A stretch of DNA of 64,000 nt from Plantibacter sp. ME-Dv--P-122b. Lineage in GTDB: Bacteria > Actinomycetota > Actinomycetes > Actinomycetales > Microbacteriaceae. Position 1 is the stretch's first letter. Every line of letters starts with the position of its first letter. This document shows positions 36,867-40,945 of the stretch, in pieces. The stretch covers positions 248,001 to 312,000 of the forward strand of contig NZ_JARVSC010000009.1 in NCBI RefSeq assembly GCF_030209375.1, given 5' to 3'. Position numbers and translations under genes: made by a program. Below the pieces are notes generated by a model. It did no database searches and was not told the origin of the DNA. It saw only the letters and a program-made list of their open reading frames with translations.

Positions 36867-36949
36867 CAGATCACCTTACGTCGCTCGCTACCGCGATGCG
36901 GAGTGGTTGACGCGTCCCCGCAGGTGTGCGGGCGGCGGTCGACGTGCGC

Positions 36950-37453
36950 TCAGCCGACGAGGGTCGCCCGCGCGTCAGAGACCAACAGGTACAGGGCACG
37001 ACTCGAACCGGGAAATCGTTCGAAGCCGAATCGCTCGTAGAACGGGATGACGTCGTCGGTCAGGGCGTGGACCAGGATCGCTCGCATCCCGATGATCTCC
37101 GCCGCGCTGATCGCTTGGAGGACGGCATGCTGCAGGAGGGCGGTTCCGAGGCCGAGGCCGATGAACTCCTGATCGATGGCGAGCCGGCCGATCAGGACGA
37201 CGGGGATCGGATCGGGTGCTCGGCGTGCGAGCGGCTGTGGCGCCTCCTCTCGGACGAGCGAACTCGCCGAGAGGCAGTAGTAGCCCGCGACGCGACCCTC
37301 GGTCGTCGCCGAGACCATCGTCTTCGACCCACCACTGCGGTCGTTGTTCCGTGCGTATCCACGGAGCCAGCTGTCGAGGACGTCGACGCCACAGCGGAAC
37401 TCCGACAGGACGTCTCCAGTGGCCAGCGGTCGTGGAGTCCGGAACTCAGTCAA
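36950..37453 (-). CDS. GNAT acetyltransferase toxin (TacT-like)
   Basis: A GNAT acetyltransferase of 167 residues resembling TacT/AtaT-type toxins, which acetylate aminoacyl-tRNA and stop translation. The acetyl-CoA loop region is RLAIDQEFIGLGLGTALL, and the C-terminal Tyr in FYERFGF is the general acid of these toxins. It overlaps by 8 bases the DUF1778 gene encoded just upstream, the standard toxin-antitoxin order with antitoxin first. Regulation is expected to be by the antitoxin-toxin complex at the promoter at 37728-37749. Together with its antitoxin it sits in the stretch that splits the moa genes. Confidence 0.85.
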   Translation of the reverse strand: MTEFRTPRPLATGDVLSEFRCGVDVLDSWLRGYARNNDRSGGSKTMVSATTEGRVAGYYCLSASSLVREEAPQPLARRAPDPIPVVLIGRLAIDQEFIGLGLGTALLQHAVLQAISAAEIIGMRAILVHALTDDVIPFYERFGFERFPGSSRALYLLVSDARATLVG

Positions 37454-37721
37454 CGAAGATCGTGGGTCGGTTCAGGAGGTCGCGGAGTCCGTCGATCGAG
37501 CGCGCTGGGCGTTCCAGGATCGCTTCGAACTGCTCGAAGGCGGCCGCGTCCACGCGGATGTCGCGCTCACGGCGGATGACATCGGCCGCCCGTTCCGTAG
37601 CGGCGGACGTGGTGAAATCGGTGATGGACCGACCTTCGATCGCGGCGGCGGCGGCGATCGCGTCCTTCTGTGCGCTGGTGACGCGGACCTCGATGCGCTT
37701 GTCTTTCAGTGGAGATGCCAT
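37446..37721 (-). CDS. DUF1778 antitoxin (TacA-like)
   Basis: Antitoxin of 91 residues with an N-terminal ribbon-helix-helix (KRIEVRVTSAQKDAIAAAA, about 6-24) for DNA binding and a C-terminal toxin-neutralising segment (ILERPARSIDGLRDLLNRP). Its ATG lies 6 nt after TACAAT (37733-37728), so a leaderless message is likely. The toxin gene begins 8 bases before its end. DUF1778 proteins paired with GNAT proteins are an established toxin-antitoxin type. Here the operator presumably covers the promoter and allows autorepression. Confidence 0.87.
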   Translation of the reverse strand: MASPLKDKRIEVRVTSAQKDAIAAAAAIEGRSITDFTTSAATERAADVIRRERDIRVDAAAFEQFEAILERPARSIDGLRDLLNRPTIFVD

Positions 37722-37727
37722 GCCGTC

Positions 37728-37749
37728 ATTGTACGGCAATCTTCCGTAC
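37728..37749 (-). promoter_or_regulatory. Toxin-antitoxin promoter and operator
   Basis: A TACAAT -10 box (37733-37728) overlaps the inverted repeat GTACGG (37731-37736) and CCGTAC (37744-37749) with a 7-nt centre. The ribbon-helix-helix antitoxin probably binds here and blocks its own promoter. The repeat is perfect over 6 bp per arm; binding is inferred. Confidence 0.55.
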
Positions 37750-37786
37750 GGAGTCGATGTCGGAGGTTGGGGGCAGAATCACCCTC

Positions 37787-38353
37787 ATGACTCGTGAACG
37801 TTCCTGGCACGGTTGTGTCTTCATCGGCGTGAGCCTCGACGGTTACATCGCGGGGCCCGACGGCGACCTCGGCTGGCTCACGGAGCTCGAGCCGCGGGAG
37901 CATGCCGCGGATGCACCTGGGGAGCACCCGGCGCTCGACTGGGATTCGTTCTTCCCGACGATCGACACCCTCGTGATGGGACGCACCACCTACGACACCG
38001 TCCTCGGCTTCGGCGAGTGGCCGTTCGACGGCAAGCGGGTCGTCGTGCTGAGCGCCACGCTCGAGGCCGGGGACGACCGCATCACGGTCGCCGGTTCGCT
38101 CGACGAGGCGGCCGCCCTGCTCGACGAGGCCGGTGCCGGCCGCGTCTACATCGACGGCGGCAGGACCATTCAGGCGTTCCTCGGTGCGGGCCTCGTCGAT
38201 GAGATCACCGTGTCGGTCGCGCCGGTGCTCATCGGCTCGGGCGCCCGCCTCTTCGGCGACCTCGACGCCGACGTCCGCCTGCGACTCCGCGGCACCCACG
38301 CGACGCCCGAGGACGGACTCGTGCGCATCACCTACGACGTGCTGCCGCGCTGA
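37787..38353 (+). CDS. RibD C-terminal/dihydrofolate reductase-like protein
   Basis: A dihydrofolate reductase-fold protein of 188 residues, RibD C-terminal family. The opening strand is VFIGVSLDGYIAGPDGD, MGRTTYDTVLGF is in the middle, and YIDGGRTIQAFLGAGLVDE lies before the last strands. It resembles the product of the gene at 10427 in fold but is clearly a different subgroup (YwjB/YyaP-like). It is probably an NADPH-dependent reductase of unknown substrate. Its ATG is 7 nt after CAGAAT (37774-37779). It diverges from the toxin-antitoxin operon and shares its regulatory spacer. Confidence 0.83.
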   Translation: MTRERSWHGCVFIGVSLDGYIAGPDGDLGWLTELEPREHAADAPGEHPALDWDSFFPTIDTLVMGRTTYDTVLGFGEWPFDGKRVVVLSATLEAGDDRITVAGSLDEAAALLDEAGAGRVYIDGGRTIQAFLGAGLVDEITVSVAPVLIGSGARLFGDLDADVRLRLRGTHATPEDGLVRITYDVLPR

Positions 38354-38378
38354 CAGCCCGGCTCCGACCGGGAGTGCC

Positions 38379-39251
38379 TCAGTCGACCGGAGCCGAGGTC
38401 CGATGAGCGATGGTGAGCTTGCCGGGCAGACCGCTGCGTTCGAATGCAGCGGCGATTCGATCCTCGAGCGTCGGCTCAGCGATGAGGAGTTCGACGCGCG
38501 TGATCGGTCCGTCGTCCGACGTCTGATGGCGGATCTTCACCGCGGTGGACATCGTCGAGAGCGCCGGTTCGAGCACCTCGAGGAACGAGGCGAGTTCCGT
38601 CGGCGGTGTCCCGTCCGTTTCGATGTCGACCGAGTGGTACGGAGCCTGGTCGAGCGACCAGGAGGTTTTCCAGACCACCGGGCCGATCGAGTCCTCGAGG
38701 CGGTCGCCCGCGGTGAATACTCGCAGGGCCTCGAGATACCGTGTCACGGAGTCGGCCGTGATCTGGGGGACGACGGATGCGGGAGCATCGTCGCGACGGA
38801 CACTGATGGTCTCGCGACCGCGGCTGAGGTGCCCCGCGATCGCTGTCCACTGGTCGGCGGTGAATGCGGCCGTCGAGCCGAGCAGCAGCGTGGAACCGTT
38901 GGCGAGTCCGAGCGACGACATCTCGCAGGGCGAGATGGTCCGCTCGGAGGCGAGTGTCGTCAGCAGGTCGCCGACCTCGGCGGCGGACGTGTCCTCGTGC
39001 ACCGACACCCGGAGGTCACACCTCGGCATGACGTTGATCTTCGGCTCGATCGTCCGGACCGTCACCGTCCCACGACCGCCGAGCTCGGCTTCGACCGTGG
39101 CCTTCGCGCCGATCGCGGCGATCGTCATCGGCGCACAGGCGCGGACGAGCAGCGCCACGAGCAGGATGAGGCCGAGCGCGATCGCCACTCTGACGACGGT
39201 CTTCCGGCGCGCTGTCTTCTGTCGTTCCGGCGGCGTCCGTCCCCCGTCCAT
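38379..39251 (-). CDS. Membrane-anchored protein of unknown function
   Basis: A 290-residue protein I do not recognise. A basic N-terminus (about 10-20) precedes one membrane helix (about 23-40), and the rest should face outward. It contains two Cys near residues 80 and 110 and a mixed alpha/beta-looking sequence with regular acidic turns. It starts one base inside the stop of the AAA ATPase gene (TGATG), so the two are translationally coupled and probably act together at the membrane. Base composition in this pair is lower in G+C than in neighbouring genes, hinting at transfer. Function unknown. Confidence 0.7.
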   Translation of the reverse strand: MDGGRTPPERQKTARRKTVVRVAIALGLILLVALLVRACAPMTIAAIGAKATVEAELGGRGTVTVRTIEPKINVMPRCDLRVSVHEDTSAAEVGDLLTTLASERTISPCEMSSLGLANGSTLLLGSTAAFTADQWTAIAGHLSRGRETISVRRDDAPASVVPQITADSVTRYLEALRVFTAGDRLEDSIGPVVWKTSWSLDQAPYHSVDIETDGTPPTELASFLEVLEPALSTMSTAVKIRHQTSDDGPITRVELLIAEPTLEDRIAAAFERSGLPGKLTIAHRTSAPVD

Positions 39252-40435
39252 CACTCGATGTCGATCTCGTACTGCCGCTGAATGAATGCGGCCATGTTCG
39301 GAACGGTGAACGAGACGCGTCCGCGTTCCGGCATGTAGATGATCCCTTTGTCGATGAGGCTCTGGCGAGCGGGGGAAAGACTCGTCGCCCTCGTTTCGAG
39401 TCGCACGGCGACGTCGGCCGTGCGCGTTCCACGGTCGCCGTCGATCGACATGGCTCGGAGGTACTGGCGCTCAGCTGGCGTCGCGCGGTCCCAGCGTGCG
39501 GGAAAGAAGCCCATGTCCAACGACGCGTTGCCATCGATGACGGCCGCCGCCGCGTCTTCGCGCGATATCGTGCGCTCTGATGCGATCTCCCAAGAGGCTT
39601 GGCCGTAGGTCTGGAGGAAATACGGGTACCCATTGGCCGCATGAACGATGTCTTCGGCAGCTCCACTCTCGAACGAGGCGCCTTGTCGGGTGGCGGGCAC
39701 GGTGAGCGCCTCGAAGGCGGCAGCAGGATCGAGGGCGCCGATCTCGCGGTAGTTGAACAACCGCTCGGCGTACGATCGGGCTTCGCTCAGCACGGACGGT
39801 AGGGATGGCAGGCCGGCCCCGAAGATGTAGAACGGCCATCCCTTCTGCCCGGCACGATGCTGAGCCGCAAGGAGCGCGATGATCAGCTCCGGGTCGATGT
39901 CCTGCATCTCGTCGATGAACAGCGCGAACGCTGTGGACGTCTCCATCAGCGCAGGCGCGAGGTCTTCGACGACCTCCTCGAAGTCGATCTCGATCTGGCC
40001 TGAGTCTGCCCTGCCCGGCAGGGCCTCGAGTCCGATGTCGATGGACGCCACCCCAAGAGACAGGCTGAACGACTTGACCGTTCGCAGGGCATGTCTGACG
40101 GCTGTAGTCGCATGCTTCGTGCGCTGGAGCTTTCTGCTCGCCAGCAGCAGCGATCGCCCCAGCTTCTGTCGAACAGCCTCGTTTCCCAGCTCGGATGAGC
40201 GGCCTTCCAGTTCGATGATGAACCAATCCGCGCGCTCTGCCTGCTCACGGAAGCGATTCAGCAGCACGGTCTTCCCGACACCCCTCAGGCCGTGCAGGAC
40301 GATGCCGCGACTATGGAGGCGCCTCCGGGACCGAGCGACGATGAGATCGAACATCTCGATCTCGTTCTCGCGGCCTACGAGATAGGGAGGCGTGAGGCCT
40401 GATCCAGGCGAGTACGGGTTCAGTTCCGCGCGCAT
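39251..40435 (-). CDS. AAA ATPase of the Orc/Cdc6-like (AAA_16) group
   Basis: A 394-residue P-loop ATPase. Walker A is GLRGVGKT (about 50-57), Walker B is LFIDEMQD (about 172-179), and a sensor-like FGAGLPSLPS follows. A C-terminal winged-helix-like part begins near 310. The opening YLVGRENEIEMF is the region that precedes Walker A in AAA_16/Orc-Cdc6-like proteins. It is coupled to a membrane-anchored protein encoded just downstream. The ATG is 6 nt after a TATGAT -10 box within an AT-rich palindromic region, which implies a leaderless transcript. Its role could be phage defence, signalling or DNA handling; none can be proven from sequence. Confidence 0.82.
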   Translation of the reverse strand: MRAELNPYSPGSGLTPPYLVGRENEIEMFDLIVARSRRRLHSRGIVLHGLRGVGKTVLLNRFREQAERADWFIIELEGRSSELGNEAVRQKLGRSLLLASRKLQRTKHATTAVRHALRTVKSFSLSLGVASIDIGLEALPGRADSGQIEIDFEEVVEDLAPALMETSTAFALFIDEMQDIDPELIIALLAAQHRAGQKGWPFYIFGAGLPSLPSVLSEARSYAERLFNYREIGALDPAAAFEALTVPATRQGASFESGAAEDIVHAANGYPYFLQTYGQASWEIASERTISREDAAAAVIDGNASLDMGFFPARWDRATPAERQYLRAMSIDGDRGTRTADVAVRLETRATSLSPARQSLIDKGIIYMPERGRVSFTVPNMAAFIQRQYEIDIE

Positions 40436-40441
40436 GCTCGA

Positions 40442-40483
40442 ATCATACCGTTTTCTAGCCGATTATTGCATTTTCGCAATAAT
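40442..40483 (-). promoter_or_regulatory. AT-rich promoter with palindrome for the ATPase pair
   Basis: A TATGAT box (40447-40442) sits 6 nt before the ATPase ATG. ATTATTGC (40462-40469) and GCAATAAT (40476-40483) form a perfect 8-bp inverted repeat over the expected -35 region, 17 nt away. This is the most AT-rich stretch in the window and probably carries a repressor site. Confidence 0.55.
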
Positions 40484-40516
40484 GCATAATTATACGCGAT
40501 TCACCGAAGTGGCCTG

Positions 40517-40945
40517 TCACAGGCCGACCCACTCCGTCTCGCCGTCGGCCAGGTGCTGGCGCTTCCAGATGGGGACGGTGCGCTTGATCTCCTCGACCAG
40601 CCGCTCGCAGGCGGCGAAGGCCTCGGCCCGGTGCGCGGCGGCGACGGCGGCCACGAGGGCCAGGTCGCCGACGACGAGCGACCCGACGCGGTGCGCTGCT
40701 GCCACTCGAAGACCGGTCTCCGCGGCGACCGTCCGGCAGCAGTCCTCCAGGAACCGTTGGGCGTCGGGGTGGGCCCGGTAGTCGAGGGCGTCGACCGCCT
40801 CGCCGTGGTCGTGGTCGCGCACGATGCCTCGGAAGGCCACGAGCGCACCGTTGGCGGGTGCCGCGACGAAGTCCTCGATCGCGTGCGCGTCGAGGGGCGA
40901 CTCGGAGATGAGGGCGAGGACCTCGGGAACCGTCGACTCACTCAT
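40517..40945 (-). CDS. moaE: Molybdopterin synthase catalytic subunit MoaE
   Basis: Large subunit of molybdopterin synthase, 142 residues, which transfers sulfur from MoaD thiocarboxylate to cPMP. Conserved features are VAFRGIVRDHDHG near 35-47, HRVGSLVVGD at about 85 and the active-site Lys in VEEIKRTVPIWKRQ (about 118-131). It starts at an ATG that overlaps the end of the moaC-mogA fusion by 8 bases, so both are in one operon with moeA upstream. MoaD is encoded 7.4 kb away on the other strand. Confidence 0.93.
   Translation of the reverse strand: MSESTVPEVLALISESPLDAHAIEDFVAAPANGALVAFRGIVRDHDHGEAVDALDYRAHPDAQRFLEDCCRTVAAETGLRVAAAHRVGSLVVGDLALVAAVAAAHRAEAFAACERLVEEIKRTVPIWKRQHLADGETEWVGL

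Follow-up and report, generated by a model that had tools for sequence, protein, structure and literature searches.

A Plantibacter STAND/Orc-like ATPase as a probable mobile one-gene unit with a candidate phased array at its own promoter

Closest described systems and the ATPase

The subject of this analysis is a gene for a Walker-type, STAND-like ATPase from Plantibacter sp. ME-Dv--P-122b, located at 40435-39251 on the reverse strand of a stretch of 64,000 nucleotides that was analysed as a whole and is referred to here as the window (contig NZ_JARVSC010000009.1, positions 248,001 to 312,000). The gene has an ATG start and encodes 394 amino acids, ending in a C-terminal winged helix; it is overlapped by a second gene, and the two had been taken, in an earlier reading made from the letters alone (the original prediction), for a coupled module behind a repressible-looking promoter. 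STAND NTPases are defined by the two Walker motifs, A and B, and by a GxP motif that follows the P-loop domain, together with a C-terminal superstructure-forming repeat domain, and STAND regulators such as MalT act as activators. Orc1/Cdc6 initiators bind DNA repeats. The solved archaeal Walker ATPases PABY2304 (2qen) and SSO1545 (2fna), which we take to be members of Pfam ATPase_2 (PF01637), the archaeal-type ATPases, have a P-loop domain and a C-terminal winged helix. An actinobacterial regulator of one operon with an SSO1545-like ATPase domain is described in the available part of PMC5760070: IniR (818 amino acids, M. marinum), the activator of mycobacterial iniBAC, which also has a part resembling MalT domain III. 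Private autorepression, in which the protein of each replicon acts on its own operon, is exemplified by plasmid-encoded RepA, which autorepresses its repABC operon (PMC4492784, in the portion available).

The window ATPase is probably a self-regulating STAND/Orc-like protein, a mobile one-gene unit that would assemble on an array at its own promoter. The gene would be self-contained and horizontally mobile, and its product an ATP-switched P-loop NTPase of archaeal-ATPase/STAND type that would bind a private array through its C-terminal winged helix. The half-sites would recur every 10 bp, inverted about a centre, over the gene's own leaderless promoter; since a step of 10 bp is one helical turn, they would lie on one face of the DNA. 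Protomers might assemble cooperatively on this array and shut the promoter, which a change in nucleotide state, or some other trigger, would release.

The protein carries Walker A at residues 49-56 (GLRGVGKT), Walker B at D175/E176 and GYP at 269-271; in alignments A1 and A2, K55, D175/E176 and P271 were invariant and G269/Y270 at least nearly so. An AlphaFold model built with 41 sequences (predicted local distance difference test, pLDDT, 93; predicted template modelling score, 0.89) ended with the winged helix plus one helix. The motifs of STAND NTPases are present and NLR/CED-4 chains occur among the fold matches, but the C-terminal repeat domain is absent from the model. Pfam AAA_16 (PF13191) scored 61.5 bits, above its gathering cut-off of 32.6, and ATPase_2 scored 23.5 bits, below its cut-off of 33.2. 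Over the whole length, VIA-align placed 2qen first (Z 24.5, root-mean-square deviation 3.9, 324 residues aligned) and 2fna second (Z 23.3, 3.7, 327 aligned), followed by Orc2 (1w5t, Z 20.1) and then by NLR/CED-4 proteins. The window protein therefore shares the whole-length fold of the two archaeal ATPases, from which it differs in sequence (16-17% identity) and in falling under the ATPase_2 cut-off.

Foldseek ordered the matches differently. By E-value, Cdc6/Orc1 and RuvB led, the first row being the Cdc6/Orc1 chain 2qby (E = 1.3e-9), and 2qen and 2fna stood at ranks 34 and 29; by TM-score over the query length, 2qen (0.61) and 2fna (0.57) were the highest among the matches listed. The original prediction had raised the possibility of a housekeeping Orc1/Cdc6 replication protein. 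This was rejected despite the first Foldseek row, because TIGR02928 (Orc1/Cdc6) gave 15.3 bits, far short of its cut-off of 181.3. The window ATPase resembles Orc1/Cdc6 in its AAA core followed by a winged helix, but it is patchy, without copies in close congeners, and has one array that was found, at its own promoter.

IniR, with its SSO1545-like domain, provides an earlier example of an ATPase of this kind at work in transcription (available part of PMC5760070), although the window family is about 394 amino acids long, shows no additional domain in the model and has its recognisable array at its own promoter. RepA belongs to another protein family, and replication or partition genes are not regularly attached to the window family. 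Literature searches, limited to open-licence papers, found no description of this ATPase family or its array.

Phased arrays ahead of the ATPase genes

AT-rich stretches with short TA-containing half-sites were found upstream of ATPase homologues, and the clearest arrays step by 10 bp. One of these (L115) has three direct and three inverted copies, with a perfect inverted repeat of 25 bp; another (L123) has four direct and at least two inverted copies. The main set of upstream regions comprised 40 representatives, less than 70% identical to each other. Here the mean z was 2.65-2.67 for repeats at lag 10 and 1.10-1.23 at lag 20, and the remaining lags between 4 and 34 spanned -0.46 to 0.23. At lag 10, z exceeded 2 in 22 of the 40 (21 in a second run) as against 8% of 153 upstream regions of neighbouring genes (P = 7e-13); the mean z at this lag was 0.14 within the ATPase coding regions and 0.26 for 26 AT-rich upstreams used as controls. 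Inverted repeats were present in 19 of 40 at P ≤ 0.05 and in 14 at P ≤ 0.01, compared with 9% of 120 controls at P ≤ 0.05; this was a significant enrichment (Mann-Whitney, P = 2.5e-7). At least one of the inverted repeat and the 10-bp lag was observed in 27 of 40, rising to 33 when a -10 element was also counted.

A host factor, such as an Lsr2/H-NS-like silencer of AT-rich foreign DNA, might bind the array instead of the ATPase, and the AT-richness of both spacer and gene relative to the host would suit such a protein. It is nonetheless very unlikely, given that 10-bp repeats were absent from the AT-rich control upstreams, that the half-site letters differ between ATPase clades inside one bacterial family, and that one array per genome was found.

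The motif TANNNT lay 5-8 nt ahead of the start codon in 22 of 40 representatives (other 4-nt bins contained 2-8); many transcripts are therefore probably leaderless, with the array over the promoter. From the position of the array, over the -10 and reaching the start codon, together with its private nature and the winged helix, we infer self-regulation, in which the ATPase itself would be the binder of the array and repression the effect of binding. Positive autoregulation, with the ATPase as an activator on the same array, is unlikely. It would agree with the STAND-like fold, with the SSO1545-like domain of IniR, an activator (available part of PMC5760070), and with arrays that extend upstream of the -35, but the repeats of many members reach the -10 and end a few bases from the start codon, which is the usual place of a repressor.

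Self-regulation by repression also accords with the way in which the arrays are inherited. Comparison of locus pairs, 80 per identity bin, showed that the 70 bp ahead of the start were alike according to ATPase identity (mean z = 5.6 at 70-85% and 2.6 at 60-70%), and that the flank from -190 to -120 was not (0.37 and 0.19 respectively). Thus, the array moves with the gene and the flanking DNA does not. Below 60% ATPase identity the operator letters were barely alike (0.2-0.5) and phasing was still present in the set; letters that diverge while phasing lasts are expected if site and protein change together. A single array per genome was found in all seven genomes searched, i.e., the window genome, that of L115 and five others. 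The L115 genome gave two matches, which were both arms of one palindrome, and the reversed control pattern matched once in each direction. The family may thus offer an example of a P-loop NTPase whose sole recognisable array in the genome lies at its own promoter.

The 10-bp phasing was robust to dereplication among closer relatives. The test covered 186 members. For those that share 33% identity or more with the window ATPase, lag 10 was the top lag at every level from 70 to 40%, and z exceeded 2 in 28 of 62 (<70%), 15 of 38, 5 of 16 (<50%), 3 of 12 and 2 of 7 of these as the level was lowered; distant relatives (<33% identity) had no 10-bp array. Among 19 dereplicated loci from viral contigs, lag 10 exceeded z = 2 in five (L222, L228, L229, L237 and L240) and an inverted repeat at P ≤ 0.05 occurred in six. 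In four distant loci from viral contigs (L243, L244, L249 and L254), the top repeat lag ahead of the start was 18 bp rather than 10.

The ATPase promoter in the window lies within a spacer at 40436-40516 (reverse strand; G+C 0.420), and the sequence features that the original prediction had recognised here all stand. The AT-richest 60-mer of the window begins at 40434, in the spacer ahead of the ATPase, and the G+C content of the ATPase gene (0.636) and of the adjoining gene (0.678) is lower than that of the window (0.701), the ATPase gene ranking last among the 52 called genes that encode 150 amino acids or more. An 8-bp inverted repeat, ATTATTGC-N6-GCAATAAT, occupies 40462-40483; the sequence had no second match with up to three mismatches in the 3.92-Mb genome, and taken alone it is only modestly unusual, its score being reached by 3 of 100 dinucleotide shuffles of the spacer. 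A -10 element, TATGAT, lies at 40447-40442 on the reverse strand, 6 nt ahead of the ATG, a proximity that suggests a leaderless mRNA. An automatic scan for sigma-70 promoters and terminators found no promoter in 38300-40600, probably because the -35 is weak. An operator-like element does sit over the promoter, as the original prediction had supposed.

The spacer is homologous to sequences retained by two congeners. The interval 38361-40516 has no counterpart in the genome alignment with six congeners, save for an operator relic in G005 and G006, the two most distant, which keep it without the ATPase; no ATPase match (E ≤ 1e-6) was found elsewhere in either genome. Both relics are phased at 10 bp (lag 10 z = 11.2 in G005 and 4.8 in G006; none of 500 shuffles each), and they matched the window spacer with scores of 17 and 20.5 respectively, compared with a maximum of 11.5 in 2000 shuffles. 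The window spacer aligns in register to the G006 relic, such that two units, TATAATTATG and CATTATTGCG, at 40475-40494 on the reverse strand correspond to its 10-bp-phased half-sites. The relics themselves (L100 and L102) differ by approximately one 10-bp unit, so that half-site number changes between close species. The simplest account is that an ancestor held the ATPase at this place and that several lineages lost it; alternatively, the gene may have been inserted beside a pre-existing site.

Several observations weigh against a self-bound, phased operator. Among the 40 representatives, 21 had no inverted repeat at P ≤ 0.05 and 13 had neither repeat signal. The phasing of the window spacer itself was not significant (119 of 500 shuffles were as high), and its array is decayed or divergent. 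When distant members were included, lag 13 exceeded lag 10 in the full sets dereplicated at <45% and <40%, a value dominated by the 13-bp tandem repeat of one distant relative. The phylum search supplied a held-out set of 28 loci, of which eight were dropped for an identity of 70% or more to loci already used; among the 20 counted, lag 10 (mean 1.14) was not the top lag, the values for lags 13, 26 and 19 being 1.72, 1.42 and 1.33, with lags 13 and 26 driven by one tandem repeat. The 11 nearer held-out loci produced z > 2 at lag 10 in five cases, an inverted repeat (P ≤ 0.05) in five and a -10 in six, and nine distant paralogues (<41%) produced one of each, a division into nearer and distant that was chosen after the loci had been seen. 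Some held-out loci had half-sites 9 and 19 bp apart. There was no sign of a regulon in the seven genomes searched, although weaker or single half-sites would escape such a search. Finally, a different protein could bind the array.

A solitary gene and its local passenger

The ATPase is mostly a solitary, patchy single-gene unit among differing neighbours. Homologues were identified on 102 of 72,556 plasmid records (E ≤ 1e-20) and, among 50,697 phage records, on a single unverified scaffold. A further 39 IMG/VR contigs, which are classed as viral and are putative phage, included 21 nearly full-length homologues at 33-41% identity, 16 at 25-30% and two that were partial. Hosts include Actinomycetota, Pseudomonadota and Chlamydiota; within the phylum set, 63 of 396 genomes, counting distant paralogues, matched the profile at E ≤ 1e-20. 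Inside the window insert, neither terminal inverted repeats nor a target duplication were obvious.

Occurrence on plasmids and on contigs classed as viral is one of two points in favour of a different role for the array, as a nucleation platform of origin-like or plasmid/prophage type for a filament or ring of the ATPase whose job is not transcription; the other is structural, since Orc1/Cdc6 and RuvB topped the Foldseek results and TnsC was among the VIA-align rows. A platform of this kind is distinctly unlikely, because the arrays that were found sit at the ATPase's own promoter beside the -10, and because many carriers are chromosomal genes amid unrelated genes.

Under self-regulation, any role of the ATPase beyond its own promoter can be proposed only tentatively. 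Since neither a regular neighbour nor a second array was found, any further job may be one that the ATPase does alone. It is conceivable, if doubtful, that this widespread bacterial family of NLR/Orc-like ATPases comprises one-gene mobile systems, each with its own once-per-genome phased array as an address. Through assembly on the array, each protein would sense whether it, or a sibling element, is present and in how many copies, would switch itself on, and so would act as a partner-free switch in conflict or incompatibility. Whatever the role, a family annotated merely as 'ATP-binding protein' keeps a very regular DNA element before many of its members, although what surrounds them varies, and the array provides a testable candidate binding partner, and a half-site code, for a STAND/Orc-like ATPase.

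The window genome contains, in addition, a distant paralogue (L002; G000:C12:162391-163530) that is 24% identical to the window ATPase and has an inverted repeat, GATAAGTTTATC...GATAAAGTTATC, just ahead of its start, the score of which was reached by none of 100 shuffles. A near copy of this paralogue is present in G002 (L006).

The gene that adjoins the ATPase lies at 38379-39254 on the reverse strand and encodes 291 amino acids with one N-terminal helix. It begins at GTG 39254 or ATG 39251, start codons and neighbouring genes having been taken from a simple gene caller, and it overlaps the end of the ATPase gene, the stop and start sharing TGATG as originally described; the two are therefore probably on one transcript. 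The protein was also correctly described as having a single predicted helix and no recognisable family: searches of Pfam, NCBIfam and PADLOC at E up to 1, of PHROGs at E up to 0.01 and of PDB sequences at E up to 10 gave no match, and the structure model was of low confidence (pLDDT 64), with at best weak ferredoxin/PII-like matches, and too poor to use.

The coupling of the two genes, which was the substance of the original prediction, was not borne out when co-occurrence across genomes was examined. Of 349 genomes from the bacterial family, 61 had the ATPase (E ≤ 1e-20) and seven, including the window genome, had a match to the adjoining gene. The surroundings (15-16 kb) of the six other matches contained no ATPase gene according to the gene caller and blastp. 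One of these matches (L040 in G092), probably spurious, has the look of a solute-binding lipoprotein, and one genome (G111) has both genes, approximately 300 kb apart. Within the genus (seven genomes, including the window genome), close ATPase homologues occurred in G003 and G004, where no relative of the adjoining gene was found, and homologues of the adjoining gene occurred in G001 and G002, with a fragment in G006 (L010), none of them next to an ATPase. A further 88 ATPase loci (L103-L190), comprising 80 named genome contigs (the best 80 of 583), seven plasmids and the phage scaffold, had no relative of the adjoining gene, and a search of genome contigs with that gene alone returned 58 pattern matches and no relatives. 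A conserved couple was therefore rejected, adjacency being confined to the window genome among those examined. The membrane protein is a local passenger, probably riding on the ATPase transcript, and not a conserved partner.

It follows that a surface-sensing, conflict or defence module composed of both proteins is extremely improbable. The overlap of the genes, their probable single transcript and a likely toxin-antitoxin pair nearby would favour it; the lack of adjacency in any other genome examined, and of any defence family that matches the window ATPase convincingly, argue against it. The locus illustrates that what looks like an operon of two genes may have come together by chance. Only 5 of 77 named loci, and 4 of 31 family regions, had a gene on the same strand no more than 20 bp downstream of the ATPase, with different genes each time. 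Two actinobacterial homologues (L187, 4214-6209, and L106) have another gene joined directly downstream, which suggests that unrelated riders attach to the ATPase now and then.

Defence genes and the surrounding locus

A defence role for the ATPase itself is possible, and its PADLOC matches are weak at best, the lowest E-value for the window ATPase being 0.015. When applied to 41 homologues, PADLOC matched 20 to mad8 at E ≤ 0.01 (best 1.1e-5) and four to HEC-01B (best 2e-5); no PADLOC cut-off was given in either case. Among the nearest neighbours of homologues, for which 101 of 111 selected proteins were scanned, there were 13 matches to PADLOC protein families (E ≤ 1e-5), with names that include mad3, AriA, mad8, mad2 and oMTase, the individual matches being unchecked. 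Genes further out in the same regions produced 22 matches among 103 proteins, including strong matches to NsnA, PDC-S04, PD-T4-2_A and IetA; therefore, the nearest neighbours were not enriched in PADLOC matches. Pfam searches of the neighbours, limited to the best 25 of 113 families, identified enzymes, regulators, transport and ParA-type proteins, and no common partner. In some family regions (within L041-L080), defence-type genes (NsnA, PDC-S04, PD-T4-2_A, IetA and REase_II) lie kilobases from the ATPase.

The region between a UvrA-like gene and moaE (36885-40516) is a variable spot in the genus. It contains, in different genomes, a toxin-antitoxin pair, the ATPase with its passenger, a different open reading frame in G006 (called at 195 amino acids), or a dhfr-like gene only. 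The aligned dhfr-like gene is separated from moaE by merely 70-95 bp, approximately, in G001-G005, and in G006 the other open reading frame lies between them. Where the window has the insert, G001-G004 (L097-L099 and L101) have a long, GC-rich hairpin of the type CTCGATTCGCCCC...GGGGCGAATCGAG, less perfect in G004, which is possibly a terminator or a dispersed repeat.

Approximately 0.6 kb beyond the ATPase and its passenger, the window has a TacA1-like antitoxin gene at 37446-37739 on the reverse strand (Pfam TacA1, 68.6 bits) that overlaps the gene for a GNAT protein at 36950-37453. Together (36950-37739, reverse strand), these are likely to be a toxin-antitoxin pair of TacA/TacT type. The same stretch is also present in G004 and G006, and is unaligned in G001, G002, G003 and G005.

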